This document shows, piece after piece, positions 1-25,932 of a stretch of DNA of 36,135 nt. The stretch lies in assembly GCA_019247075.1 (NCBI GenBank), contig JAFAPR010000061.1, positions 1-36,135 of the forward strand. Direction: 5' to 3'. Each line of letters opens with the position of its first letter. Positions within the stretch are counted from its first letter, which is position 1. The notes beneath the pieces were generated by a model. That model had not been told where the DNA came from, did no database searches, and saw nothing but the letters and a program-made list of their open reading frames with translations. This DNA comes from Solirubrobacterales bacterium (lineage in GTDB: Bacteria; Actinomycetota; Thermoleophilia; Solirubrobacterales; Solirubrobacteraceae). A program made the translations under genes and the position numbers.

Positions 1-3000
1 TGGTCGCGCTCTCCCGGCGGCCAAGCGCCCGGATCGCATCCACGAGCTCGGCCGGGATCGACGTGCGCCGCCAAGCCCCGGACAGCGTGGGGACGGTCGG
101 GCGCGGCCGGTCGGTCGGGAGCTCGAGCGCGGTCGGCGCTCCTTCGAGCTCCACTCGCCAGTGCTCCAGCTCGGAAGCGAGCCGGTCGCCGGTCAGCCAC
201 GAGCGCTCCCACTCGGCATAGTCGCCGTACTGCACCGGCAGCTCGGGCAGCGGCGAGGGCAGCCCGGCGGCGTACGCCCGGTAAAGCGTGTCGAGCTCAC
301 GGAAGAAAACCGTCTTGGACCATCCGTCGGCCGCGATGTGGTGCGCGACGATCGCCAGGACATGGTCACGAGCGCCGAGATGCAGAAGACTCGCGCGCAG
401 CAGCGGACCGCGCCCCAGGTCGAACGGCATCTGGGTCTGCTCATCGACGAGCTCGCGAGCCACGAGCTCGGCGTCCGGCCGGCTCGAGAGATCCGTGGGG
501 TGCAGGTCGACGTCGCGCCGTGCGTCGATCAGCTGCACCCGGCGGCCGTCCTGCACCACAAAGCGCGTCCGCAGCGCTTCGTGCCGGCGAACGATCTCGG
601 ACAGGGCCCGGCCGAGCGCGACCACGTCCAGCTCACCCTTGAGGCGCAGCGGCCAGGGGATGTTGTACGCCGAGGTCGGTCCGGCGAGCTGGTCGATGAA
701 CAAGAATCGGTCCTGGGCAAATGAGGTTCGCCGGACGCGGGCGATCGGGACCAGCGGCGGAGGTTCTTCCCGCGGCTTCTCTGCCTGCTCTGCCTGCGCC
801 TGCATCGCCTCGATCCGCTCGGACAGCCCGACGACCGTCGGCGCTTCGAAGAGCGCGCGCAGCGGAAGCTGCACGTCGAGCTGCGAGTGGATCCGACCAA
901 TCATCCGTGCGGCCAGTAGAGAGTGGCCGCCGAGGTCGAAAAAGTCGTCGTGAACCCCGATTCGGTCGTGCTCGAGCAGCTCGGCCCAGAGTTCCGCGAG
1001 ACGCTGCTCGAGCTCGGTGCTCGGCGCGGTGTATTCGGCGACGGGCTCGGTGCCCCACACCTCGGGACGCGGCAGCGCCTTGCGATCCACCTTGCCATTC
1101 GGGGTGAGCGGAAACGCATCCAGCGTCACGTAGGTGGGCGGGATCATGTATGCCGGGAGCTTCTGAGCTAGGAACCGGCGCAGCTCGGTTCCGCTCGGCA
1201 TCGGGCCGCTCGGGATCACGTAGGCCACGAGCGCGTTATCGCCGGAGCGCTCCGCATGCGCTCTCGCCACCGCGGCCGCGACCGCAGGGTGCTGGGAGAG
1301 CTGCGTCTCGATCTCGCCGAGCTCGATCCGATAACCGCGGATCTTCACCTGGTTGTCGAGCCGCCCAAGGAATTCGACCGAACCATCCGGCCGGTAGCGA
1401 GCGAGGTCGCCCGTCTTATAGACGCGAGCGTGGGGTGAGGGGTCGAACCGATTGGCGACGAAGCGCTCCGCCGTGAGCTCCGGTCGGTTCCGGTAGCCGC
1501 GCGCGAGTCCCGCCCCACCGATGTGCAGCTCCCCGGGTACGCCGACCGGCGTTGGCTGGCCACGGCAGTCGAGGATGAACAACGTCGTGTTGGCGATCGG
1601 ACGGCCGATCGAGAGCGGCTCGCCTTGCGTCGTCACCCGCTGGACCGTGGACCAGATGGTCGTCTCGGTCGGCCCGTACATGTTCCACAGCTCGACGCCG
1701 CGCTGCACCAGCTCGTCGGCGAGCGCCAGCGGCAGCGCCTCGCCGCCACACAGCGCCTTGAGCCCCGGCTTTCCGGGCCAGCCCGCTTCGATCAGCATCC
1801 GCCAGGTCGCGGGCGTGGCCTGCATCACCGTGGCGGCCGAGCTGTCGAGCAGCGCCCACAGCCTGCGCCAATCCGTCGTCGCGTCCTGGGGCGCCACCAC
1901 CACGCGCGCGCCGCAGACCAGCGGCAGATACAGCTCGAGGCCGGCGATGTCGAACGACAGCGTGGTGACCGCGACGAGCACGTCGTCGCTCGTGAGGCCC
2001 GGGCGCTTACGCATCGCGGTCAGGAAGTTGACGAGCGCGCGGTGCTGAATCTCGACGCCCTTTGGCTGTCCCGTCGATCCTGACGTGTAGATGACGTACG
2101 CGAGATCGTTCGCGTCGCTGGCCGGTTGAAGCGCGCGCCCGGAGTCGCTCTCGAGCGCCTCGCGATCGAGGCACAGGACGGCCGCGCTGTGCGACGGCAG
2201 GCCGTCCACCAGGCTTTCCTCGGTCAGGAGCACGCGCACGTCCGCGTCGTCGAGCATGAACTGCTGGCGTTCGGCAGGGAATGCGGGATCGATCGGCACA
2301 TATGCGCCGCCGGCCTTGAGCACGCCAAGCAGGGCCACAAGCAGCCTCTCCGAGCGCTCGAGGCAAATGCCAACGAGCTCGCCGGTCGCGACGCCCAGCG
2401 CCTGCAGCTTCGAGGCCAATCGAGTCGAGCGCACGTCGAGCTCGGAGTAAGTCAGCGACGTGCTCTCGAATGCCACCGCGACCCGGTCGGGCGTGCGAGC
2501 TGCCTGATCAGCGATGATTTGCTCTAGGCGGCGATTCGGGATGTGTGCCTCGGTCTCGTTCCAGCGCTCGAGGAGCTCCGAGCGCTCGGACTCCTCCAGC
2601 CACGGCAACTCGTCGATCGGGCAGTCCGGATTGGCGATGATCTCGCTCAGTAGCCGCAAGAAGTGTTGCCCGAGACGCTCGATCGTCCCGGCATCAAACA
2701 GATCGGTGCTGTAGATCAGGCGGCCGTCGAGGTGGCCCTCGGGACGCTCGTCCAACTCGAGGGTAAGGTCGAACTTGGCGTTACCGATCGCGTTGCTGAC
2801 CTCGGCCTCCATCTGGTGGAGGCTCCACTCGGGATCAACGGCAACCATCGCCGGCTCGACCTCGAGCGATACCTGGAAGATCGGGTTCAGACCAGGGTCG
2901 CGACTCGGCTGTAGCTCGCGGACCAGCCGCTCGAACGGCACCAGATGGCTCAGCCCGTCCAGGAGTTCGCCGCGGACCCGCCCCAGCAACTCGATGAACG

Positions 3001-4039
3001 ACAGATGCTCCTGTACGTCGACACGGAGGACCAGCGGCGTCAGGCAGTAGCCGACCATCTGTTCGAGTTCACGGCGATTCCGCAAGTCGGTAACCGTGGC
3101 GAACACGATGTCCTCCTGCCCCGAGTAGCGATGCAACAGCACGGTGAACGCGGCGGTCAGGACCTGGAACAGGGTGGCCCCTGACGTTCGGCTCTGCGAA
3201 CGGAGCCCGTCGGCCAACTCTCTCGAGATGCGCATGCGCTTCATCGCGCCCCGGAATCGCTGACGCGACGGGCGTGGATGGTCGAGGGGCAGCTGGAGCG
3301 TGGACGCGCCGTCGAGGTGCTGGCGCCAGTAGTCGATCCGCCGGGCGAAGTCTGGACCGGGCCTCTGTTCGCGTCCCCGTCTGGAGTAGTCCGCGTACTG
3401 CATCGGAGGCTCCGGCAGCGAGGGCTCTTCACCGGCGCGGAAGTTGTCGTAGAGCGTAACCAGCTCCGGGAGGATGATGCGGTACAAGCTGACCCCGTCG
3501 AAGAGCAGGTGAGGGAGGGCCAGGTATAGGCGGTGGTGATGCTCGGTGAAGCGGATGAGAAGCGGCCTCAGCAATGGTCCGCGCGCGAGGTCGTAAGGAC
3601 GGCGCGCCTCATCTCCTGCCATCCGCACGGCCTCGGCCTCGCACTCAGCCGCGGGCATGGCGCTGAGGTCGACGACCGGCAGCTCCCAGGTCGGTGCCTG
3701 ATGGACCACCTGCACGGGCTCACCGTCGAGAACCTCGAACGTGGAGCGCCAGATTTCGTGTCTCCGCACAATCTCATTGAAGGCGGCGCGGAAGGCCGTT
3801 ACGTCGAACTGGCCCTCCTTCCGAATCGAAACCGCCTCGTTATAGACCGGATTGTCCGGCTCGAGCTGACTGAAGTACCAGACCTGCTCAAGAACGATCG
3901 ACAGCGGTGCTGGACCCGAGCCGGTCCGACGTGAGACCGGCTCGGAGGTTGTCAGCGGACCTGCCGCACCGCCGCGCAGTCGCTGCTCGAGCAGAGCTCG
4001 CTTGGTGGGCGACATGCCCCTGACTTCGAGCGTGGACAT
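1..4039 (-). CDS. Non-ribosomal peptide synthetase, C-A-PCP-C..., truncated by window edge
   Basis: Manual reverse-complement translation from ATG at 4039 (MSTLEVRGMSPTKRALLEQRL...). C domain with C3-like LPHLLFDGVS (~3490-3520). A domain with LAYVIYTSGSTGQPKG, SFDIAGLELYLPL, NMYGPTETTIWS, NGKVDRKALP. PCP DDFFDLGGHSLLAARM (~910-960). Second C domain SFAQDRFLFIDQL...HHIAADGWS (~320-350). Spot-checked codons at 3511, 2257 and 343 share the frame of 4039. Not in the ORF track because no stop lies in the window. Confidence 0.93.
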   Translation of the reverse strand, partial: MSTLEVRGMSPTKRALLEQRLRGGAAGPLTTSEPVSRRTGSGPAPLSIVLEQVWYFSQLEPDNPVYNEAVSIRKEGQFDVTAFRAAFNEIVRRHEIWRSTFEVLDGEPVQVVHQAPTWELPVVDLSAMPAAECEAEAVRMAGDEARRPYDLARGPLLRPLLIRFTEHHHRLYLALPHLLFDGVSLYRIILPELVTLYDNFRAGEEPSLPEPPMQYADYSRRGREQRPGPDFARRIDYWRQHLDGASTLQLPLDHPRPSRQRFRGAMKRMRISRELADGLRSQSRTSGATLFQVLTAAFTVLLHRYSGQEDIVFATVTDLRNRRELEQMVGYCLTPLVLRVDVQEHLSFIELLGRVRGELLDGLSHLVPFERLVRELQPSRDPGLNPIFQVSLEVEPAMVAVDPEWSLHQMEAEVSNAIGNAKFDLTLELDERPEGHLDGRLIYSTDLFDAGTIERLGQHFLRLLSEIIANPDCPIDELPWLEESERSELLERWNETEAHIPNRRLEQIIADQAARTPDRVAVAFESTSLTYSELDVRSTRLASKLQALGVATGELVGICLERSERLLVALLGVLKAGGAYVPIDPAFPAERQQFMLDDADVRVLLTEESLVDGLPSHSAAVLCLDREALESDSGRALQPASDANDLAYVIYTSGSTGQPKGVEIQHRALVNFLTAMRKRPGLTSDDVLVAVTTLSFDIAGLELYLPLVCGARVVVAPQDATTDWRRLWALLDSSAATVMQATPATWRMLIEAGWPGKPGLKALCGGEALPLALADELVQRGVELWNMYGPTETTIWSTVQRVTTQGEPLSIGRPIANTTLFILDCRGQPTPVGVPGELHIGGAGLARGYRNRPELTAERFVANRFDPSPHARVYKTGDLARYRPDGSVEFLGRLDNQVKIRGYRIELGEIETQLSQHPAVAAAVARAHAERSGDNALVAYVIPSGPMPSGTELRRFLAQKLPAYMIPPTYVTLDAFPLTPNGKVDRKALPRPEVWGTEPVAEYTAPSTELEQRLAELWAELLEHDRIGVHDDFFDLGGHSLLAARMIGRIHSQLDVQLPLRALFEAPTVVGLSERIEAMQAQAEQAEKPREEPPPLVPIARVRRTSFAQDRFLFIDQLAGPTSAYNIPWPLRLKGELDVVALGRALSEIVRRHEALRTRFVVQDGRRVQLIDARRDVDLHPTDLSSRPDAELVARELVDEQTQMPFDLGRGPLLRASLLHLGARDHVLAIVAHHIAADGWSKTVFFRELDTLYRAYAAGLPSPLPELPVQYGDYAEWERSWLTGDRLASELEHWRVELEGAPTALELPTDRPRPTVPTLSGAWRRTSIPAELVDAIRALGRRESAT

Positions 4040-4041
4040 GA

Positions 4042-5268
4042 CTAGAACGCGACCGGCAGCGCCGTGAGCCCGCGCAGCCCCAGGTTTGCACGCCACGTGA
4101 TCGGACCCGGCACGAGCTGCAAGTTGGGCAGCCGGCGCAGCAGCGCGGAGAAGGCGATCTGGCCCTCGATGCGTGCCAACGGCGCGCCGAAGCAGAAGTG
4201 TGACGCCCAACCGAACGCGAGGTGGCGGTTGTCCGCACGCGCGAGATCCAGCCGGTCGGGATCCGGGAATCGCTCGGGGTCACGGTTCCCGGCGGCCATC
4301 ACGGCCATCACCGCCTGGCCCCGCTTAATCAGCCTGCCGCCAAGCTCGACGTCGTGGGGCGCCAACCGGCCCGTGTGCTGGCTGGGACTCTCGTAGCGAA
4401 GCAGCTCTTCGACCGCGGTCCCGATAAGCGCCGGGTCGCGGCGCAGCTGTTCCATCTCCTGAGGATGGCGTAGCAGCGTGAGCAGCCCGTTGCCGATCAG
4501 GTTCGTCGTCGTCTCCTGTCCTCCGACCATGGTGACGATCACATTCGCGACCACCTCCTCCTCGGTCAGGCGGTCACCGTCGACCTCAGCCGTAGTCAGC
4601 GCGTTGACGAGGCCCTGCGTGGGATGCGTCGCCTGGCCGCGGACCGCATCTCGGAAATAGGCCATCATCTCCTCCAGGCTGCGCGCGACCTTCGCCGCGC
4701 GGCCGGGATTGTGCTGGAAGTTGCCGAGCATCTCGGCGAAGTCCTGCGACCAGTCCTTGAGCTTGCGGTGGTCCTCTATCGGCACGCCGAGCATCTCGGC
4801 GGTCACGATCGCCGGCAGCGGGGCGGCCAGGTCCTCCATCACGTCCATCTCGCCCCGTGCGCTCACCGCGTCGAGCAGCGAGTTGGCGATCTCCTCGATG
4901 TGGCCCCGCAGCACCGCCACACGCCGCGGTGTAAAGGCCGCCGCGGCCAACCGGCGCACGCGAGTGTGTTGCGGGGGGTCGAGGAACAGCATCTGGCGGA
5001 CCATCACCCGCGCGATCGGGGTCAGCTCCTCCATCCCGAGCAGAACCAACTTCTCCGGCGTATGAGTCCGCTCCGCCGAGAAGCGGTGCAGGACCTCGAC
5101 GACGTCGGCGTAGCGCGTCACCACCCAAGCGTGCAGGTAGGGATCCCAGTGCACCGGATCCTCGCTGCGCAGCCGTCGGTAAAGCGGGTACGGATTCGCC
5201 AGAACGTCCGGATCCAGCAGGTGATACAGACTGAGAGGAGCTTCAGTCGAGACCGTCATAGGCCTCAC
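4042..5268 (-). CDS. Cytochrome P450
   Basis: 408 aa. I-helix VGGQETTTN, EELLR (ExxR), heme loop FGWASHFCFGAPLAR. GTG start overlaps the upstream NRPS stop (GTGA); the next NRPS gene starts 3 nt after its stop. Confidence 0.95.
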   Translation of the reverse strand: MRPMTVSTEAPLSLYHLLDPDVLANPYPLYRRLRSEDPVHWDPYLHAWVVTRYADVVEVLHRFSAERTHTPEKLVLLGMEELTPIARVMVRQMLFLDPPQHTRVRRLAAAAFTPRRVAVLRGHIEEIANSLLDAVSARGEMDVMEDLAAPLPAIVTAEMLGVPIEDHRKLKDWSQDFAEMLGNFQHNPGRAAKVARSLEEMMAYFRDAVRGQATHPTQGLVNALTTAEVDGDRLTEEEVVANVIVTMVGGQETTTNLIGNGLLTLLRHPQEMEQLRRDPALIGTAVEELLRYESPSQHTGRLAPHDVELGGRLIKRGQAVMAVMAAGNRDPERFPDPDRLDLARADNRHLAFGWASHFCFGAPLARIEGQIAFSALLRRLPNLQLVPGPITWRANLGLRGLTALPVAF

Positions 5269-7184
5269 ACTTCGTGCTCGTCGCTCAGCGTCTCGAGCGG
5301 CCCCGGCGTACTCTCCGCAAGCAGATGGGCGGCGTCGTCGTCGCTCATCGCCTCCAGCTCGGCGATGAGCAAGCGCTCAACCTCGGTGGCCATCTCGGCC
5401 ACCGTCGGATTGTCGAACAAGGCGCGTAGGCTCATGTCGACGCGGAAGCGCTCGCCGATGCGCGCGATCAGCTGCGCTCCGAGCATCGAATGACCGCCGA
5501 GCATGAAAAAGTTCTCGTCCGTCCCCACCCGGTCGAGCTCGAGCAGCTCGGCAACGAGTGTTGCCAACACTTGTTCGAGCTCGCTCCCCGGCTGCGCCGA
5601 CTCCGCAGGCTGCGCCGTGTTGGCGGAGACCGGCGCGGGCAGCGCCGCCCGATCCACCTTGCCATTCGGCGTCAAGGGCAGCTCCTCGAGCCAAACGAAC
5701 GCCGCCGGAACCATGTAAGTCGGCAGGTGTTGGCCAAGATGAGCGCGCAGCTGCGTGCTATCGGGACGACGACTGTCGACGGGCACCACGTAGGCGATCA
5801 AGTGCCGCCCGCCCGACGCATGCTCTCGCATCACCACAACGCTGGAGCGGACCTCCACGTGGCGGTTCAAGGTGGCCGAGATCTCGCCCAACTCAATCCG
5901 GTTGCCCAGGATCTTGACCTGCTCATCGACACGGCCGAGGAACTCGATCTCGCCATCCGGACGCTCACAGACGAGGTCCCCCGTACGGTAGACGCGCGCC
6001 CCTGGAACGCCGCTGAACCGGTCGGGGATGAACCTCTCGTCCGTGAGGCACGCCCTATTCAGATAGCCGCGGGCCACACCGGCGCCACCGACCAGCAACT
6101 CTCCGGGGGTCCCCGTACCGACGCGATCCAGTTGGTCGTCGACGATGTAAGCCTGAACGCCCTTGATCGGCCTGCCGATCGAGGGCACACCCACCTGGTC
6201 GATACTGGGGCTTACTACACCTGATGTCGTGACGACCGTGGCCTCGCTGGGTCCGTAGTTGTTGACCACGGCGAACGGGAGCCCCGCAGGCGGATGACGA
6301 TGCAGGGTATCGCCGCCGGTGAGCAGGTAACGCAACGACGTCTCCGCAGGCCAATCGAGTGTCATCAGCACCTCGGCGAGCGCCGTGGGCACGAAGGTCA
6401 CGCTGATCCGCTCTGCTACGAGCCAGTCGCGCAGCGCGACAGGATCGGCGCGAACCTCGTCCGTAGGAATGTGGATAGAGGCGCCCGCCGTGAGGTACGG
6501 CCACAGCTCCCAAACCGTCCCGTCGAACGCGGGGCTGGCGATCTGAGTAGCCCGGTCGGCCCCACTGATCGCGAATGCGTGCTGGTGCCAAGAGACCAGG
6601 TTACGCAGGCCGGCGTGCTCCACCAAGATGCCCTTCGGAGTACCCGTCGAACCGGACGTGTAGATCACGTAGGCGAGGTCTCCGCCGCCGCCGGTCGCAG
6701 CCGGCTCGACGCTCGACTCCAGCTCGGGCTCGCGCTCGGCGCACGCCGCGTCGACAGTGACCACAGCCATCTGCCCGGTGTCGAGCTCCGCGGCGGCCGA
6801 GCCGCTGGTGACGAGCACGTCGGCGCCGCAATCACGAAGCATAAAGCCGAGCCGCTCCCGAGGATGACCCGGGTCCAACGCCACATATGCGCCCCCCGCC
6901 CTAAGAATGCCAAGCGCCCCGACGATCAGCGCCGCCGATCGCCCCAAGCACAGGCCGACGGGACGCTCGCGAGCGACGCCCAAAGCGCGCAAGCGCCGAG
7001 CGAGTTGATCGGTACGCCGCTCCAGCTGGCCGTAGGTAAGCGTCGCGTCGGGGCCCGATACCGCCAACGCATCAGGCTGAGTCGCGGCGTAGGTTGCAAA
7101 CTGCTCTTGAACTGAGCTGTCTCCCAGAGTCTCACGGGATGCCCGTCCGCGTGTGCCAATGGCAGCACCGGCGACGATTGTCAT
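5265..7184 (-). CDS. Stand-alone NRPS adenylation-PCP didomain (A-T), Leu-like specificity code
   Basis: A motifs LTYGQLERRTDQLARRL, LAYVIYTSGSTGTPKGILVEH, FDGTVWELW, VVNNYGPSEATVV, YRTGDL, NGKVDRAALP; PCP ENFFMLGGHSMLGAQ. ORF extends to 7361 but homology starts after MTIVAG (ATG at 7184). Confidence 0.93.
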   Translation of the reverse strand: MTIVAGAAIGTRGRASRETLGDSSVQEQFATYAATQPDALAVSGPDATLTYGQLERRTDQLARRLRALGVARERPVGLCLGRSAALIVGALGILRAGGAYVALDPGHPRERLGFMLRDCGADVLVTSGSAAAELDTGQMAVVTVDAACAEREPELESSVEPAATGGGGDLAYVIYTSGSTGTPKGILVEHAGLRNLVSWHQHAFAISGADRATQIASPAFDGTVWELWPYLTAGASIHIPTDEVRADPVALRDWLVAERISVTFVPTALAEVLMTLDWPAETSLRYLLTGGDTLHRHPPAGLPFAVVNNYGPSEATVVTTSGVVSPSIDQVGVPSIGRPIKGVQAYIVDDQLDRVGTGTPGELLVGGAGVARGYLNRACLTDERFIPDRFSGVPGARVYRTGDLVCERPDGEIEFLGRVDEQVKILGNRIELGEISATLNRHVEVRSSVVVMREHASGGRHLIAYVVPVDSRRPDSTQLRAHLGQHLPTYMVPAAFVWLEELPLTPNGKVDRAALPAPVSANTAQPAESAQPGSELEQVLATLVAELLELDRVGTDENFFMLGGHSMLGAQLIARIGERFRVDMSLRALFDNPTVAEMATEVERLLIAELEAMSDDDAAHLLAESTPGPLETLSDEHEV

Positions 7185-7607: not shown

Positions 7608-8276
7608 TCACGCCGCGAGTTGCCCCAAGCGGCGGGTGGACGGCCCGGACTCAAGCCGCGCCAGCTCCCGTTGCAGCGCTCGTCGCCCGCGGTGATGCAG
7701 ACCGTGGATCGAGCCCTCGCTGCGCCCCATCCAGTCCGCAATCTCCCCCGGGGTCAGCCCCACGACATGACGGAGCATGACGACTTCGCGCTGCTCATCG
7801 GGAAGCGTCGCCAACGCAGCCCGGACGGTCTCGACGCAGTCAAGATCCGTCCCGCAAGCCGCTGCTCGATCCAGCACCTCTCCGGTCGGCAAGAAACGAT
7901 TGGCGCGCAGGTGATCGATCGCGACGTTGCGAGCGAGGCGCAAAAGCCACGCGAAGAATGGCACGCCACGATCGTCGTACTTCACGATCGTCGTTATCAG
8001 CTTAACGAACACATGCTGAGTCACGTCTTCGGCCTCGTGATCGTCACGCACGATGGAGCGGACATAGCCATAGATGTTGTGCACATAGCTGACGTAGAGG
8101 AAGCGCAATGCGCCGTCGTCGCCTTGCTTGGCGAGCTCTACCGCAACTCGCGTCTTGCGCTGGGTCTCTGGTGAGTCATCGAGCGTGGCTCTGCTCTTGA
8201 AGCCGACGTTCCCCGATGTCGTGGCTAGTGCTTCGGTGATCACGGCCGCCCCTTTCTGATCCGCGGAGACGCCCAA
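7608..8276 (-). CDS. RNA polymerase sigma factor, sigma-70 family, ECF-like
   Basis: Region 2 YVHNIYGYVRSIVRDDHEAEDVTQHVFVKL; region 4 ALATLPDEQREVVMLRHVVGLTPGEIADWMGRSEGSIHGLHHRGRRALQREL. Confidence 0.93.
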   Translation of the reverse strand: MGVSADQKGAAVITEALATTSGNVGFKSRATLDDSPETQRKTRVAVELAKQGDDGALRFLYVSYVHNIYGYVRSIVRDDHEAEDVTQHVFVKLITTIVKYDDRGVPFFAWLLRLARNVAIDHLRANRFLPTGEVLDRAAACGTDLDCVETVRAALATLPDEQREVVMLRHVVGLTPGEIADWMGRSEGSIHGLHHRGRRALQRELARLESGPSTRRLGQLAA

Positions 8277-18437: not shown

Positions 18438-19571
18438 ATGAGAGCTGCATCGGGGCCGGAGCTCTGGCTGCTGCGTCTGATGGCTGAGCGAGGACTCAGG
18501 CTGCTAGGTGCGACTGGGCTCATCATCGCCATGACGCGTGAGTCCGAACTCGAGGTCGTCGCCGAGGCCGGGGCGGCGACGCCGCGGGTGCGCTCCCTGC
18601 CGCTTCATGGAAGCGCGCTCGGCACGGTCTGCGAGAGCCGGACCAGCTTGGCCTTGGAGCAGCCGACTGCGCGAGAGACGCCGTGGCTGACCGAGCTTGG
18701 CGTCGCGGCGGCCGCGGTGCTCGTGGAGCCGCTTCCGTTCGAGGGCCAGCTCGGCCTGCTGATCGCGCTGGGCGACCGTGAGCCTGGGTTCGACCGGTCG
18801 GAGGTCGCGGCGGCCTCGGATCTAGCCCGCAGCATCGTCGAGCGGTTGGAGGCCGAGCGGTCCACCGAACGGGAGCGGTTGCGCCACGGTGTGCTGGCGC
18901 GCGAGCGGGAACGGACGCGCTGGGCGCGTGAGCTCCACGACGAGACGGTGCAAGGGCTCGCCTCCCTGCGTCTGCTACTCGAGTCTGCGCGCTGTTTGAA
19001 CGACTCCCACGAGCGGCAACAGGTGCTCGAGAACGCGCTCGCCGAGGTGGATCGCGAGATCGACGCGCTCCGGCACCTCATCACCGAGCTTCGGCCAGCA
19101 GCGTTGGACGACCTCGGGCTCGTCGCTGCACTCGAGGCGCTCGCCCGGCGGGCCGGGGCCATCGACGGCCTCACGGTAAACACCGACATCGCTGTCAACG
19201 GGCCGGTGCCTCGCCTCGGTCCGGAGGCCGAGAGCGCGGTCTACCGGATCGCACAGGAGGCGTTGACCAACGTGGCGAAGCATTCGGGTGCTGCGCACGC
19301 CGAGCTAGCTTTGCACGTCCAAGGTGACCGGCTGCTGGCGACGGTGCGAGACGACGGCATCGGCTTTGCGTCCGCGGACCCGGCTTCAACGATGACAGCG
19401 CGCCCTGAATCCAGTGGTAACGGTGCGGTTGCCGCCGCGACGGGGTTCGGTCTGAGCGGGATGCAAGAGCGCGCCGAGCTCGTGGGCGCCGACCTGGATG
19501 TCACGTCCGAGCCCGGTGCGGGCACCACGGTGCGCGTCAGCGTGCCCATCTCGGGGCCGACAACAACCTAG
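18438..19571 (+). CDS. Sensor histidine kinase, GAF-like sensor plus HisKA_3/HATPase
   Basis: RWARELHDETVQGLASLRLLLESA, RIAQEALTNVAKHSGAAHAEL, VRDDGIGF, GFGLSGMQERAELVGADLDVTSEPGAGTTVRVSVP. Confidence 0.92.
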   Translation: MRAASGPELWLLRLMAERGLRLLGATGLIIAMTRESELEVVAEAGAATPRVRSLPLHGSALGTVCESRTSLALEQPTARETPWLTELGVAAAAVLVEPLPFEGQLGLLIALGDREPGFDRSEVAAASDLARSIVERLEAERSTERERLRHGVLARERERTRWARELHDETVQGLASLRLLLESARCLNDSHERQQVLENALAEVDREIDALRHLITELRPAALDDLGLVAALEALARRAGAIDGLTVNTDIAVNGPVPRLGPEAESAVYRIAQEALTNVAKHSGAAHAELALHVQGDRLLATVRDDGIGFASADPASTMTARPESSGNGAVAAATGFGLSGMQERAELVGADLDVTSEPGAGTTVRVSVPISGPTTT

Positions 19572-20592: not shown

Positions 20593-21879
20593 GTGCGGGC
20601 CTTCACTGGACGCCGGGGCTCGGATGGCTGGCAATCTGTCGCGATCTGCGGTGGGGGCAACGCTGCGCACGCTCTGGCTGTCGTCGCGTCGCAGTACTTC
20701 GGCGGGGCCATCGATTGGCTGGTGAGCTCTGAGGAAAAGGCGGAGCGGCTGCGCCGCGCGTTGGCGAGTGGTGGGCTGCGCTCCACGGGCGTGATCAGGG
20801 CCACCGCGGACCGGGTGCGAACAATTACTGCTGACCCGGCCGAGGTGATCCCGAACGCCGACATGGTCATCATCGTGGTGCCCGCCTTCGCTCATGGCGC
20901 CCTGCTCCGGCGAATCAGACCATGCGTGAGCGAACGGACGGCGATTGGCTGTATGCCGGCGCGGGGAGGTTTCGAGTTTGGGGCGGCCCAGCTGGCTGCG
21001 GTTGGTGGCGACGTCCCTCAGACGCTGTTCGGCCTCCAGACGCTGCCGTGGTCGACGCGCGTGACGACCGTGGGGAGGCGTACGCACATCCACGCGATCA
21101 AGGGAGAGGTGGTCCTTGCCGCTCTTCCTGCCGGTCGTGCGCCGGCGTTGGCTGCGCGGATCTCGAAGATGTTAGGAATCCGGGTGGTTCCGGCTAGGAG
21201 CTTTCTCGGCCTGACCATCGGGAATCCCGGTCAGATCATCCATCCGGGCCTGATGTACTCCCACTTTCGCTGGTGGCGGGGAGAGGAGTACGCCGGGGAT
21301 CGCGTGCCGCGGCTCCATGCCGAGGTGACTGACGAGACGGGTGTCTTGGTGGAGCGGCTTTCGGAGGACGCGGTCGCTACGGCGCGAGCGCTCGAGGCGA
21401 AGACCGGCGGCGCGCTCGGGTTGGAGGCGGTGGTCGTCCCGATTCACGAGTGGCTGCGATCGGCCTACGGCCGGCTGATTAGGGACGCGAGCAGCGTTGC
21501 TTCCTGCTTTCGCACCGGGCCGAACCAGGCGCTCCGGGCGCCGATGGTCGAGAGCCGCCCCGGGAGGTTCGTACCCGAGTTCCAGCATCGCTATCTGAGC
21601 GAGGACGTCCCGTTCGGGCTGGTTGTCACGCGGGCGCTGGCCGAGATCGCCGACGTAGAGACCCCCCTGATCGACGAGGTCATCACGTGGGCTCAGTCTG
21701 TGCTCCAGAAGACTTATCTCGTTGACGGTGAGTTGCGAGGGCGCGACGCCGAGAGGGTTCCCATCCCGCAGAACCATGGGGTAGTAACGGTGTCGGACCT
21801 GATCGACTGGTACACCGAAGCCGACAGGTCAATGTCGCGCCTTGCGATGAGTCGTTTCGGTCCTTTCGCGCGACGTTGA
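20593..21879 (+). CDS. NAD/NADP octopine/nopaline dehydrogenase family (opine dehydrogenase-like)
   Basis: VAICGGGNAAHALAVVASQYFGG Rossmann start; GNPGQIIHPGLMYSHFRWWRGEEY typical of the family. GTG start. Confidence 0.82.
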   Translation: MRAFTGRRGSDGWQSVAICGGGNAAHALAVVASQYFGGAIDWLVSSEEKAERLRRALASGGLRSTGVIRATADRVRTITADPAEVIPNADMVIIVVPAFAHGALLRRIRPCVSERTAIGCMPARGGFEFGAAQLAAVGGDVPQTLFGLQTLPWSTRVTTVGRRTHIHAIKGEVVLAALPAGRAPALAARISKMLGIRVVPARSFLGLTIGNPGQIIHPGLMYSHFRWWRGEEYAGDRVPRLHAEVTDETGVLVERLSEDAVATARALEAKTGGALGLEAVVVPIHEWLRSAYGRLIRDASSVASCFRTGPNQALRAPMVESRPGRFVPEFQHRYLSEDVPFGLVVTRALAEIADVETPLIDEVITWAQSVLQKTYLVDGELRGRDAERVPIPQNHGVVTVSDLIDWYTEADRSMSRLAMSRFGPFARR

Positions 21880-22108: not shown

Positions 22109-23797
22109 GTGCCGGCGTATGACGTCCTGATCATCGGGGCGGGGCTCGCCGGCCAGCGAGCCGCGCTGGCAGCCGCGCAGACCGGCGCGACCGTGGGGGT
22201 TGTATCCAAGGTCCATCCAGTCCGCTCGCACTCCGTCGCCGCCGCCGGCGGCATCAATGCTGCCTTGAATCCCGAGGACAGCTGGGAGTCCCACGCCTTC
22301 GACACGGTCAAGGGCTCGGACTACCTCGGCGACCAGGACGCAATCGAGATCATGTGCCGCGAGGCCCCGGACGAGCTCCTGTGGCTCGAGCACGCCGGGG
22401 TCACGTTCCACCGCGACGGCACCGGCCATCTGGGTACGCGAGCATTTGGCGGCGCTTCGGCTGCCCGCACCTACTATGTCGCCGACATCACGGGGCAGGC
22501 AATCCTGCACGTGCTCTACGAGCAGCTGCTCAAGCACCACGCCCAGCTCGACCGCTACGAGGAATGGTTCACCACCGACCTGGTGGTCGGCGACGAGGGT
22601 CAGTGTGTGGGGGCGATTTGCCGTGATCTGCGCGATGGGCGCCTCGAGCTCATCAATGCCAAGGCAGTGATCCTCGCCTCGGGCGGCGCGGGCCAGGTGT
22701 ACAGGCCGACGACCAACGGCCTGATCGTGACGGGCGATGGCATCGCGCAGGCGTGCAGGGTCGGAGCCAAGCTCATGGACATGGAGATGGTCCAGTACCA
22801 CCCGACCACGCTTAGCGGCAACGGCCTCCTGATCACCGAAGGCGCGCGCGGCGAAGGCGCCTGGCTGCTGAACGCCGAAGGCGACCGGTTCATGGAGGAG
22901 TACGCCCCCAACAAGCTCGAGCTCGCGTCGCGCGACGTGGTCTCACGCGCCGAGCAGACCGAGATCATGGAGGGCCGGGGCTTCCCCGACGGCACCGTCG
23001 CGCTCGATGTCACCAAGGTCCCACGCAGGCGCACGCTCGAAGCGCTGCGCGAGATCGTCAACATCGGTCGAGACTTCGCGGGCGTTGACATCACGCGCGA
23101 GCCGATACACATCCGTCCCGGCAATCACTACATCATGGGAGGGGTCAAGACCGACGTCGACGGACAGACCACCGTGCCTGGGCTCTATGCGGCCGGAGAG
23201 GTCGCCTGCGTCTCGGTCCATGGCGGCAACCGGCTCGGCGCCAACTCGCTGCTGGACACGCTCGTATTCGGCCGCCGCTCGGGCGAGAGCGCGGCCAGGC
23301 GGGCGCTACGGATGCCCATGCCCTCGACCCCCAGCGCGTGCCTGACCGACACGCAGCGCGCGCTCGCGGCGATCCTCCGCCGCCGCGGGAATGGCAGCCG
23401 CATCGGCGCGATCAAAAAGGAGCTGGGCGACACGATGAACGAGTACGTCGCCGTTTTCCGCGACGCCGAGGGGCTGGCCAAGGCGCACCAGATCGTGCGC
23501 CGGTTGAAAGAGGAGGCGGCTGGTGCGGCGATCGACGATCACGGCTCGGTCTTCAACCAGGACGTGATCGCTGCGATTGAGCTCTCCTACATGCTCGAGG
23601 TGGCCGAGACGATCGTGATCGCCGCCGAGGAGCGCAAGGAGTCACGCGGCGCCCAGTACCGGACCGACTTCCCCGAGCGCAACGACGCCGACTGGCTCAA
23701 GCACGTCGACATCTCGCTCGACGGCGGCCCTGAGCCGAAGGTGAGCTATTCGCCCGTCACCATCACCCGCTGGCAGCCCGAGGAGCGGACGTATTAG
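22109..23797 (+). CDS. sdhA: Succinate dehydrogenase/fumarate reductase flavoprotein subunit
   Basis: [103 protein letters not shown] start. Confidence 0.96.
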
Positions 23798-23908
23798 TGA
23801 TCACGCCCCCACCATTGGAAGAAACCTGCGCATAGGGTCCATAACTTCCAGTGGTCGTGAAAGTGCCCCTCGCGTCAATGACCACCCCAAGCAACCCGTG
23901 AGATCCTG

Positions 23909-25036
23909 ATGCCCGAATACACGCTGAGAATCCGTCGCTTTGACCCGCTCTCCGGCGAGGCCGCCTACTGGGACGAGCACTTCATCGAGATGGAAGAGCA
24001 CAACTCCGTCCTCGACGGAATCCTCAAGGTCAAGGACGAGAAGGACGGCTCGATCGGCATCCGCTGCTCCTGCCAGCAGGGCATCTGCGGCTCGTGCGCG
24101 GTTAGGATCAACGGCAAGCCAGGACTCGCCTGCAACACCCATCTCGAGGAGGCCGCCCACCGCGGCCACGGCGTCGGTTGGAACCCCCCGGCTCCCGACG
24201 ACACGTCCAGCGGAGAGGGGCTCAAGCTTCCCGAGATCATGGTCGAGCCGATGGGCAACATGCCGGTCATCCGCGACCTGATCGTGGACATGGACGCCGT
24301 CCATTGGCGCAAGATCCAGCGCGTCACCCCGTGGCTCATCAACAGGGAGCCGGTCCCGGAGCGCGAGTACATCGTCCCCCACGCCAACATGGTCGACGTC
24401 ACCCAGCCGATGTCGTGCATCCAGTGCGGCGCGTGCGTCTCGGACTGTCTCTCGATGGAGATCGACCCGCTCTTCATCGGTCCCGCGGCGCTGGCCAAGG
24501 CCTACCGCTTCGTCGGCGACCCGCGCGACGCCCAGCACCGCGAGCGGCTCTTCGATCTGGCCGAGGACCCCCACGGGATCTACGACTGCACCCACTGCTT
24601 CAACTGCGTCGACGCTTGTCCCAAGGGCGTCGACCCGATGAACCAGATCATGCGCCTGCGCCGCATCGCAGGTACCGACTACGACATCGAGGACCGCAAC
24701 AACGGCTACCGCCACGAGCACGCGTTCGTCAAGAACATCCGCCGCAACGGCCTCCTGCACGAGTCTGACCTGCTCGCCGACTCCTACGGCGGCAAGTTCA
24801 ACCCGGCCGCGGGGCGCGAACTGGTGAGCTCGTTGCCCACGGGGATCAAAGGGCTCGCTCGCCGCAAGATGACACCCAAGACCGCGCTCATGCATCCGCA
24901 CAAGGCGCCCAAGCCGGTATCCCAGACGTTTGACCGCATCGAGGGCCGCGACCAGCGCGTCGAGTTGAATCTCTACGTGAGCGGCTACGAGGACGACGAG
25001 CCCGCCGATGAGACGGAGAGCGAGGAGCGTCGATGA
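23909..25036 (+). CDS. sdhB: Succinate dehydrogenase/fumarate reductase iron-sulfur subunit
   Basis: [2Fe-2S] [51 protein letters not shown]. Confidence 0.95.
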
Positions 25037-25932
25037 GGGTGGCCTACTGGCCGGGCTGTGTGAGCCGCGGGTTCACCCCCGAGCTGCACGGCGCGATGGC
25101 CAAGATCGCGCCCCTGCTTGACCTCGAGCTGATCGAGCTGGACCGCGCCTCCTGCTGCGGGGCGGGTGTGATCGAGGAGCACAACCAGGAACTGGCCGAC
25201 ACCCTCAACGCGCGTACGTTCGCGCTCGCCCAGCAGACCGACGGCGAGCTGATGATGAACATATGCTCGACCTGCCAGGGCGCCCAGTCCGAGTGCCAGG
25301 AGCGACTCGACGCCAACGGCGAGTACCGAGACCAAATCAACGCCAACCTCCAGGACGAGGGTCTTCGCTACGAGAAGGGCCTGACCAACAAGAACCTGCT
25401 GTGGCTGCTGGTCGAGGGGATCGGCCTCGACGAGGTTAGGTCGAGGGTCAAACGGCCCCTCAGCGGGTTGCGCGTGGGCCCGTTCTACGGCTGCTACATC
25501 GTGCGCCCAACGCGCCGCCTGGGGATCGACGAAGACCACCCGCGCGACCGCTATCTACACATGCTGATCGAGGCTCTCGGCGGGACCGTGATCGACTACG
25601 CGGGCGTCTACAAGTGCTGCGGCTTTCCGATCATCACGATGAACAAGCAGGCCTCGCTCGAGATGGCCGGCCGCCACCTCGGCGACGCGATCGACGCCGA
25701 GGCGGACTGCCTGGTGGTCCCGTGTCCGCTGTGCCACCTCAATCTCGACCTCCAGCAGCCGGTGGCCGCCAAGGCCGTGAGCCGGGAACTCGGTCTCCCG
25801 GTGCTGCACCTGCCGCAGCTGATCGGCCTGGCCCTCGGTCTCGAGCCCAAGGACCTCGGGATGAACCGGCATATCGTTCGCCCCACCTCGGTGATCGACT
25901 GGTCGACCTCCGTGGTGGGGGCGGCGGCTTAG
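25033..25932 (+). CDS. CCG-domain (HdrB/SdhE-like) subunit of succinate dehydrogenase
   Basis: Two cysteine-rich repeats: YWPGC...SCCGAG...CSTC and YGC...KCCGFP...CPLC. 4-bp ATGA overlap with sdhB. Confidence 0.92.

Follow-up and report, generated by a model that had tools for sequence, protein, structure and literature searches.

A leucine-type loading module coupled to a cytochrome P450 in a Solirubrobacterales operon: a putative initiation module with on-carrier leucine oxidation

The oxidation by a cytochrome P450 of an amino acid still bound to its peptidyl carrier protein (PCP) is an established principle in nonribosomal peptide synthetase (NRPS) systems. It has been demonstrated for Qui18/Qui15 (Ecm13/Ecm12), where Qui15 hydroxylates only Qui18-loaded tryptophan, at the beta carbon, and it is cited for NovH/NovI and NikP1/NikQ (PMC3578932). 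P450sky (Sky32), from the skyllamycin cluster, hydroxylates PCP-bound leucine, tyrosine and phenylalanine at the same position (PMC8471579), and in the polyoxypeptin cluster PlyR, which is 37% identical to NikQ, is proposed to act together with PlyC, PlyD and PlyQ on a PCP-tethered leucine (PMC3943440). Here, we examine a DNA segment of 36,135 bases (the window) which is the entire contig C2 (JAFAPR010000061.1) of a 367-contig, 87% complete genome of a Solirubrobacterales bacterium (GCA_019247075.1). In it, three co-directional minus-strand genes form one tight operon that encodes an adenylation (A)-PCP didomain, a P450 and an NRPS beginning with a condensation (C) domain (C-A-PCP-C'). We suggest that the first two constitute an initiation module in which leucine is oxidized on its carrier, and we consider this reading, taken as a whole, to be reasonably probable.

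The described systems resemble this operon in different respects. NovH/NovI, NikP1/NikQ and Qui18/Qui15 all have a free-standing A-PCP and a P450 in the same cluster, and a sequence-only reading of the window had likened the operon to the first two of these. The free-standing A-PCP beside a P450 justifies that comparison, but the geometry does not: the products of these systems are used, or are proposed to be released, as monomers, whereas in the window a C-A-PCP follows directly, an arrangement that would hand the residue straight to a C domain. They also handle Tyr, His or Trp, whereas the first A domain of the window (A1) carries a leucine code, and hence the tyrosine and histidine of the NovH- and NikP1-type systems are not matched here. 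P450sky shares the beta-hydroxylation of PCP-bound amino acids, leucine included, but it serves several PCPs and three amino acids within a large assembly line, whereas the window has a dedicated leucine A-PCP. The polyoxypeptin system, compared with the window by description only, is alike in its proposed tethered leucine and differs in having discrete A and PCP genes, with a proposed thioesterase release and re-activation.

The operon and its adenylation codes

The A-PCP gene (5265-7184, minus strand, as are all the genes and domains of the operon) extends from an ATG at 7184 to a stop at 5265-5267. Its Pfam matches (AMP-binding, 9e-76; AMP-binding_C, 7.7e-11; PP-binding, 2.5e-14) place A1 at 5658-7097 (residues 89-568) and PCP1 at 5385-5570 (residues 598-659). 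The P450 gene (4042-5268; Pfam p450, 1.7e-28) begins either at a GTG at 5268, which overlaps the A-PCP stop as GTGA, or, equally possibly, at an ATG at 5259, 9 nt further in, which would leave a 5-nt gap. Its TAG stop (4044-4042) lies 2 nt, rather than the 3 nt first claimed, from the ATG at 4039 that opens the NRPS gene. This third gene (2-4039) is incomplete: it is still open at base 2, where it runs into the contig end, base 1 of the window being base 1 of the contig. It contains two Condensation matches, AMP-binding (8.9e-93) and PP-binding (2.8e-17), which correspond to C1 (2570-3907), A2 (1091-2512), PCP2 (812-1006) and the N-terminal half of C2 (14-724; motif HHIAADGWS; 178 bits over Pfam profile positions 8-246), the remainder of which has been cut off by the contig end. 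Thus the gene trio, the GTGA overlap and the truncation at the left edge had all been correctly recognized from the bare sequence. The catalytic motifs are intact throughout: YTSGSTG..PKG and the NGKVDR lysine in the A domains, the LGGHS serine in both PCPs, and GGQETTT and HFCFGA with Cys359 in the P450. The C1 motif is PHLLFDG compared with HHxxxDG, the first histidine being replaced and the second kept; among its relatives, H, S or C occupies the first position.

The columns of the A-domain pocket codes were assigned manually, with the numbering of GrsA as the reference. By this alignment A1 has the code DGWFLGNVVK, which is of the leucine type and matches DAWFLGNVVK in nine of ten positions; A2 has the glycine-type code DILQLGMIWK. 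DAWFLGNVVK was the commonest leucine code among 2051 surveyed A domains, and DILQLGMIWK is listed there for glycine domains (PMC12283262); the scytocyclamide line has four leucine domains with the same leucine code, one of them with a gap (PMC7524897). To judge from these codes, leucine is most likely the first residue of the window's assembly line and glycine the second.

On this basis we infer the following sequence of events. A1 would adenylate L-leucine and, within a single small protein, load it onto PCP1; the P450 would then bind the leucyl-PCP1 and oxidize the side chain as a thioester, with 3-hydroxyleucine as the likeliest product. C1 would accept this leucine-derived thioester as its donor and join it to the glycine on PCP2, after which C2 would hand the dipeptide onward. 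Judged separately, oxidation on the carrier appears highly probable from the comparative data presented below, while hydroxylation at the beta position of leucine, suggested by analogy with the characterized enzymes, is favored with more modest confidence.

A cassette found in at least eight phyla

The P450 was used to scan about 85,000 species genomes, and the best 80 loci were returned, so that the true total may be higher. Among these 80, 76 encode a P450 60-79% identical to that of the window, and the remaining four, from Streptomyces, are at about 40%. By domain mapping, 70 of the 76 P450 genes are immediately preceded, on their own strand, by an A domain plus PCP, a frequency that excludes a chance pairing. 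In two others (L064 and L066) the leucine A-PCP is on the opposite strand; one (L106) is cut at a contig end, another (L082) has little upstream sequence, and a third (L116) is frame-broken. The single clear exception is L086 (8369-11227), where a flavin-dependent, Trp-halogenase-like protein precedes the family P450.

The P450s form one clade of 72 rows that includes the window's, with support of 100/99 when analyzed with 15 outgroup P450s and 99/98 when plasmid relatives were added. Its members come from the Acidobacteriota, Actinomycetota, Chloroflexota, Rokuibacteriota, Dormiibacterota, Pseudomonadota, Vulcanimicrobiota and Verrucomicrobiota; the cassette is therefore present in at least eight bacterial phyla, mostly of soil-dwelling organisms, the taxon labels being taken from the titles of metagenome-assembled genomes (MAGs) and only as reliable as those. 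Cultured carriers are Rhodococcus, Dictyobacter, Thermogemmatispora, Ktedonosporobacter and Saccharothrix. The family is rare and has a clear boundary: in 246 genomes of the window's own phylum the next best P450 scored 471 bits compared with 745. Such a patchy occurrence suggests a horizontal spread, of which the tree alone is no proof.

The adenylation specificity is conserved along with the P450. When A1 domains were chosen by position alone, an unbiased count, all 65 that were readable proved to be of the leucine type, and 54 had exactly DAWFLGNVVK. Among relatives the A1 pocket is 94% identical compared with 48% for the whole domain, whereas A2 shows 31% in the pocket and 37.5% overall (in this comparison A1 was also filtered by code); the nine A1 pocket columns exceed random columns in conservation (p about 5e-5), and the A2 code varies freely. 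Moreover, the A1 domains are a single clade against the A2 domains (support 100). Because both A1 and the P450 are each a single clade, the pair travels as a unit. Where all five domains are present (33 loci), mean identity declines from the P450 (68%) through PCP1 (53%), A1 (50%) and C1 (44%) to A2 (38%), and distances correlate more closely between P450 and A1 (r 0.67) than between P450 and A2 (0.55); all domain pairs correlate, and this co-divergence lends the pairing some weak support.

What follows the pair is more variable. Of the 61 relatives whose P450 is followed by 3 kb or more of sequence, 41 have an adenylating module next, mostly one with a C domain. In most of these a thioesterase terminates the line behind module 2: a stretch of about 270 residues lies after PCP2 in 32 loci, and every such stretch matches Pfam Thioesterase. 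This layout (A-PCP / P450 / C-A-PCP-thioesterase), seen for example in the Rhodococcus loci L051 and L077, predicts a dipeptide of oxidized leucine and a second residue, and the earlier opinion that no product could be deduced was hence too pessimistic. Ten of the 32 thioesterases have GxCxG in place of GxSxG, with Cys replacing the nucleophilic Ser (L042, L044, L048, L081, L083, L090, L093, L094, L104 and L105). In the window, as in L046 and L050, PCP2 is directly followed not by a thioesterase but by a second C domain, from which it follows that its line is longer than two residues and its product longer than a dipeptide.

In one acidobacterial group (tree support 99/67), and hence probably by a single event, the P450 has been joined to the downstream module: in L063, L071 and L078 it is fused in frame through a linker to C-A-PCP, and in L052 and L072 it is joined to a C remnant or directly to A-PCP. 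Such fusions place the P450 between PCP1 and C1. They bear on the possibility that the pair supplies free hydroxyleucine by thioesterase release and re-activation elsewhere, as in the novobiocin and nikkomycin routes. PlyR/PlyC of polyoxypeptin are proposed to work in this manner (PMC3943440), and L041, from Dictyobacter kobayashii, has the A-PCP, the P450 and a broken, frameshifted thioesterase but lacks a C domain within 10 kb. Nonetheless, the prompt arrival of an adenylating module in the window and in two-thirds of the relatives with room for one, together with the existence of P450-C-A-PCP fusions, makes such a monomer supply very unlikely. The coupling of the A-PCP to the P450 and its role as initiation module for the next C-A-PCP, both envisaged in the sequence-only reading, are supported by the cross-phylum pairing, the pocket conservation and the fusions.

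Some acidobacterial loci (L052, L056, L063, L072, L078 and L108) have the cassette adjacent to a stand-alone A protein with the code DLFYLALVCK, and most of them also have exopolysaccharide genes, among them an EPS sugar transferase (TIGR03025) and an EpsG-like kinase. L063 encodes in addition a Wzy-type ligase and an acyl-CoA dehydrogenase most similar to prolyl-PCP dehydrogenases, which may hint at a pyrrole starter. The exopolysaccharide link is strong in the Acidobacteria but absent from the window and many other loci, and was for this reason dismissed as an explanation for the family in general. A GNAT-like neighbor in L087 and L088 gave a Pfam match below the cut-off only.

The affinity of the P450 and the timing of its action

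P450BioI (CYP107H1) is the top match of the window's P450 by sequence (PDB, E 2.9e-83), by profile and by fold; the predicted model (mean pLDDT, a per-residue confidence measure, of 88) superimposes on it with a TM (template modeling) score of 0.87 at 37% identity. BioI breaks a fatty acyl chain through successive oxidations. Its structure has been solved in complex with an acyl-acyl carrier protein (ACP), which makes it a carrier-dependent P450, but its substrate is a fatty acyl-ACP and the enzyme itself does not belong to an NRPS. PksS is also among the leading PDB matches, whereas none of the known P450sky and OxyD entries occurs among the best 60 PDB sequences. On this PDB ranking the enzyme appears nearer to BioI and PksS than to P450sky, and it does not look closely related to the P450s named as parallels. 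Two Nostoc plasmid P450s (L123 and L124), 42-45% identical and outside the clade, have a similar setting: an AMP-binding loading protein, the P450 and a polyketide synthase (PKS)/NRPS elongation module follow each other in that order on the same strand (L123, 5652-9203; L124, 4759-8170). The next module there is however a PKS or a hybrid, and the L123 loading protein carries an ACP and probably acts on a fatty acyl group. The affinities to BioI and to the Nostoc proteins suggest, without proving it, a P450 lineage that acts on carrier-loaded starters.

The P450 family is distinguished by the conserved stretches FAExLGNFQHNP and VGGQETTTN, both in the clade to which the window's P450 belongs. 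LGNFQHNP (4705-4728, minus strand; residues 181-188) was assigned to the F-G region from alignments and the helix boundaries of the model, and every residue in it is invariant or at least 90% conserved in a 68-row alignment. These family-specific residues, and a clade that stands apart from the named beta-hydroxylases as far as this could be tested, with BioI nearest by sequence and fold, speak for a different action on PCP-bound leucine, by gamma or delta hydroxylation, desaturation or several rounds of oxidation. The P450s of PCP-bound amino acids documented in PMC8471579 and PMC3578932 give beta-hydroxy products, however, and we regard a different outcome as a possible but unlikely one.

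Several observations weigh against on-carrier oxidation of leucine in an initiation module. A1 of the window departs from its family at position 236 (G for A), and this A236G change could possibly shift the substrate to isoleucine or another aliphatic residue. One family P450, that of L086, has no A-PCP within 10 kb. Many CYP107-type P450s score nearly as high as BioI, and at about 37% identity the likeness to BioI is by itself no proof of a carrier-bound substrate. Qui18 requires an MbtH protein, whereas none was found for the window: there was no PF03621 match in its own 87%-complete assembly, and a crude regular expression for the MbtH motif found nothing in the 76 loci or the window; such a partner, needed for Qui18, is not universal. 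The same assembly has no match to a phosphopantetheinyl transferase (PPTase) of the ACPS or Sfp type, which an NRPS needs; its incompleteness may explain both absences. Only pieces of the C-A-PCP survive in the nearest relative (G010/L038). Finally, Tem23, described as 78% similar to P450sky, hydroxylates leucine after assembly, in the completed peptide (PMC8471579), and membership of a P450 family does not therefore fix the timing of oxidation.

The Tem23 case is the precedent for supposing that the P450 tailors the released, finished peptide and that its place in the operon reflects co-regulation only. The comparative data make this rather improbable. In several loci with room for it (L041, L087, L096, L098 and others) the A-PCP/P450 pair persists with no C-A downstream, which implies that the partner of the P450 is the A-PCP and not a finished peptide; the fusions found in some Acidobacteria set the P450 ahead of C1; and its high mean identity is maintained while the A2 code, and with it the rest of the peptide, varies freely.

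Genomic setting and significance

Within 27 searched genomes of the same genus an orthologue of the P450 was present only in G010 (78%), a Solirubrobacterales MAG which is placed in the window's genus and contributes the nearest P450 of all. Its locus (L038, 9998-12369, on contig C51) consists of the A-PCP and the P450, then C1 fragments only and, immediately after these, an Sfp-like PPTase identified by eye; its C-A-PCP may possibly have been lost recently. This remnant was rejected as a template for completing the cluster of the window, and a profile search of the assembly found no further Condensation domain, or continuation of the cluster, on another contig. The single orthologue, its fragmentary C-A-PCP, the missing PPTase match and a contig that ends within the NRPS gene are all compatible with an operon that is decaying or mis-binned and makes nothing in this organism. 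The window's open reading frames and catalytic motifs are all intact, however, its nearest P450 comes from a member of its own genus, and the absences rest on an 87%-complete genome; decay is thus extremely improbable.

Upstream of the A-PCP gene, across a gap of 423 nt, a gene on the same strand encodes an extracytoplasmic function (ECF) sigma factor (7608-8276; Pfam Sigma70_r2/r4), which may be regarded as a candidate member of the operon only. Elsewhere in the window a lone protein with an octopine-dehydrogenase domain (20593-21879) lies between a histidine kinase (18438-19571) and a set of reductase genes on the plus strand (22109-25932) that encode consecutively a succinate dehydrogenase/fumarate reductase-like flavoprotein, an Fe-S protein and a CCG-domain (HdrB-like) protein.

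No published account of a leucine A-PCP/P450 family was found in open-license PMC papers, a scope outside which most subscription journals fall. Compared with the described systems, this one stands out by its leucine code, by a gene order that would pass the residue directly to a C domain, by the absence of a detectable MbtH protein, and by its P450 lineage, its fusions and its distribution over eight phyla. A broader proposal, which we judge to be evenly balanced between acceptance and doubt, is that these loci represent a new, horizontally spread family of small NRPSs that occurs in no fewer than eight phyla and lies in some cases within exopolysaccharide loci. In this family a P450 akin to BioI, of a lineage apart from NovI, NikQ and P450sky, would serve as an integral on-line oxidase of PCP1-bound leucine before C1 and yield dipeptides (longer products in the window) with an N-terminally oxidized leucine.

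If this is true, soil bacteria, many of them uncultivated and a few in culture, would share a compact, conserved and testable unit for the production of oxidized leucine, a residue of several bioactive peptides. With only two or three proteins, or a P450-C-A-PCP-thioesterase chain and an A-PCP, it would offer a small system in which to study how a P450 recognizes a loaded PCP, and it would predict an unexplored class of N-terminally oxidized dipeptides.

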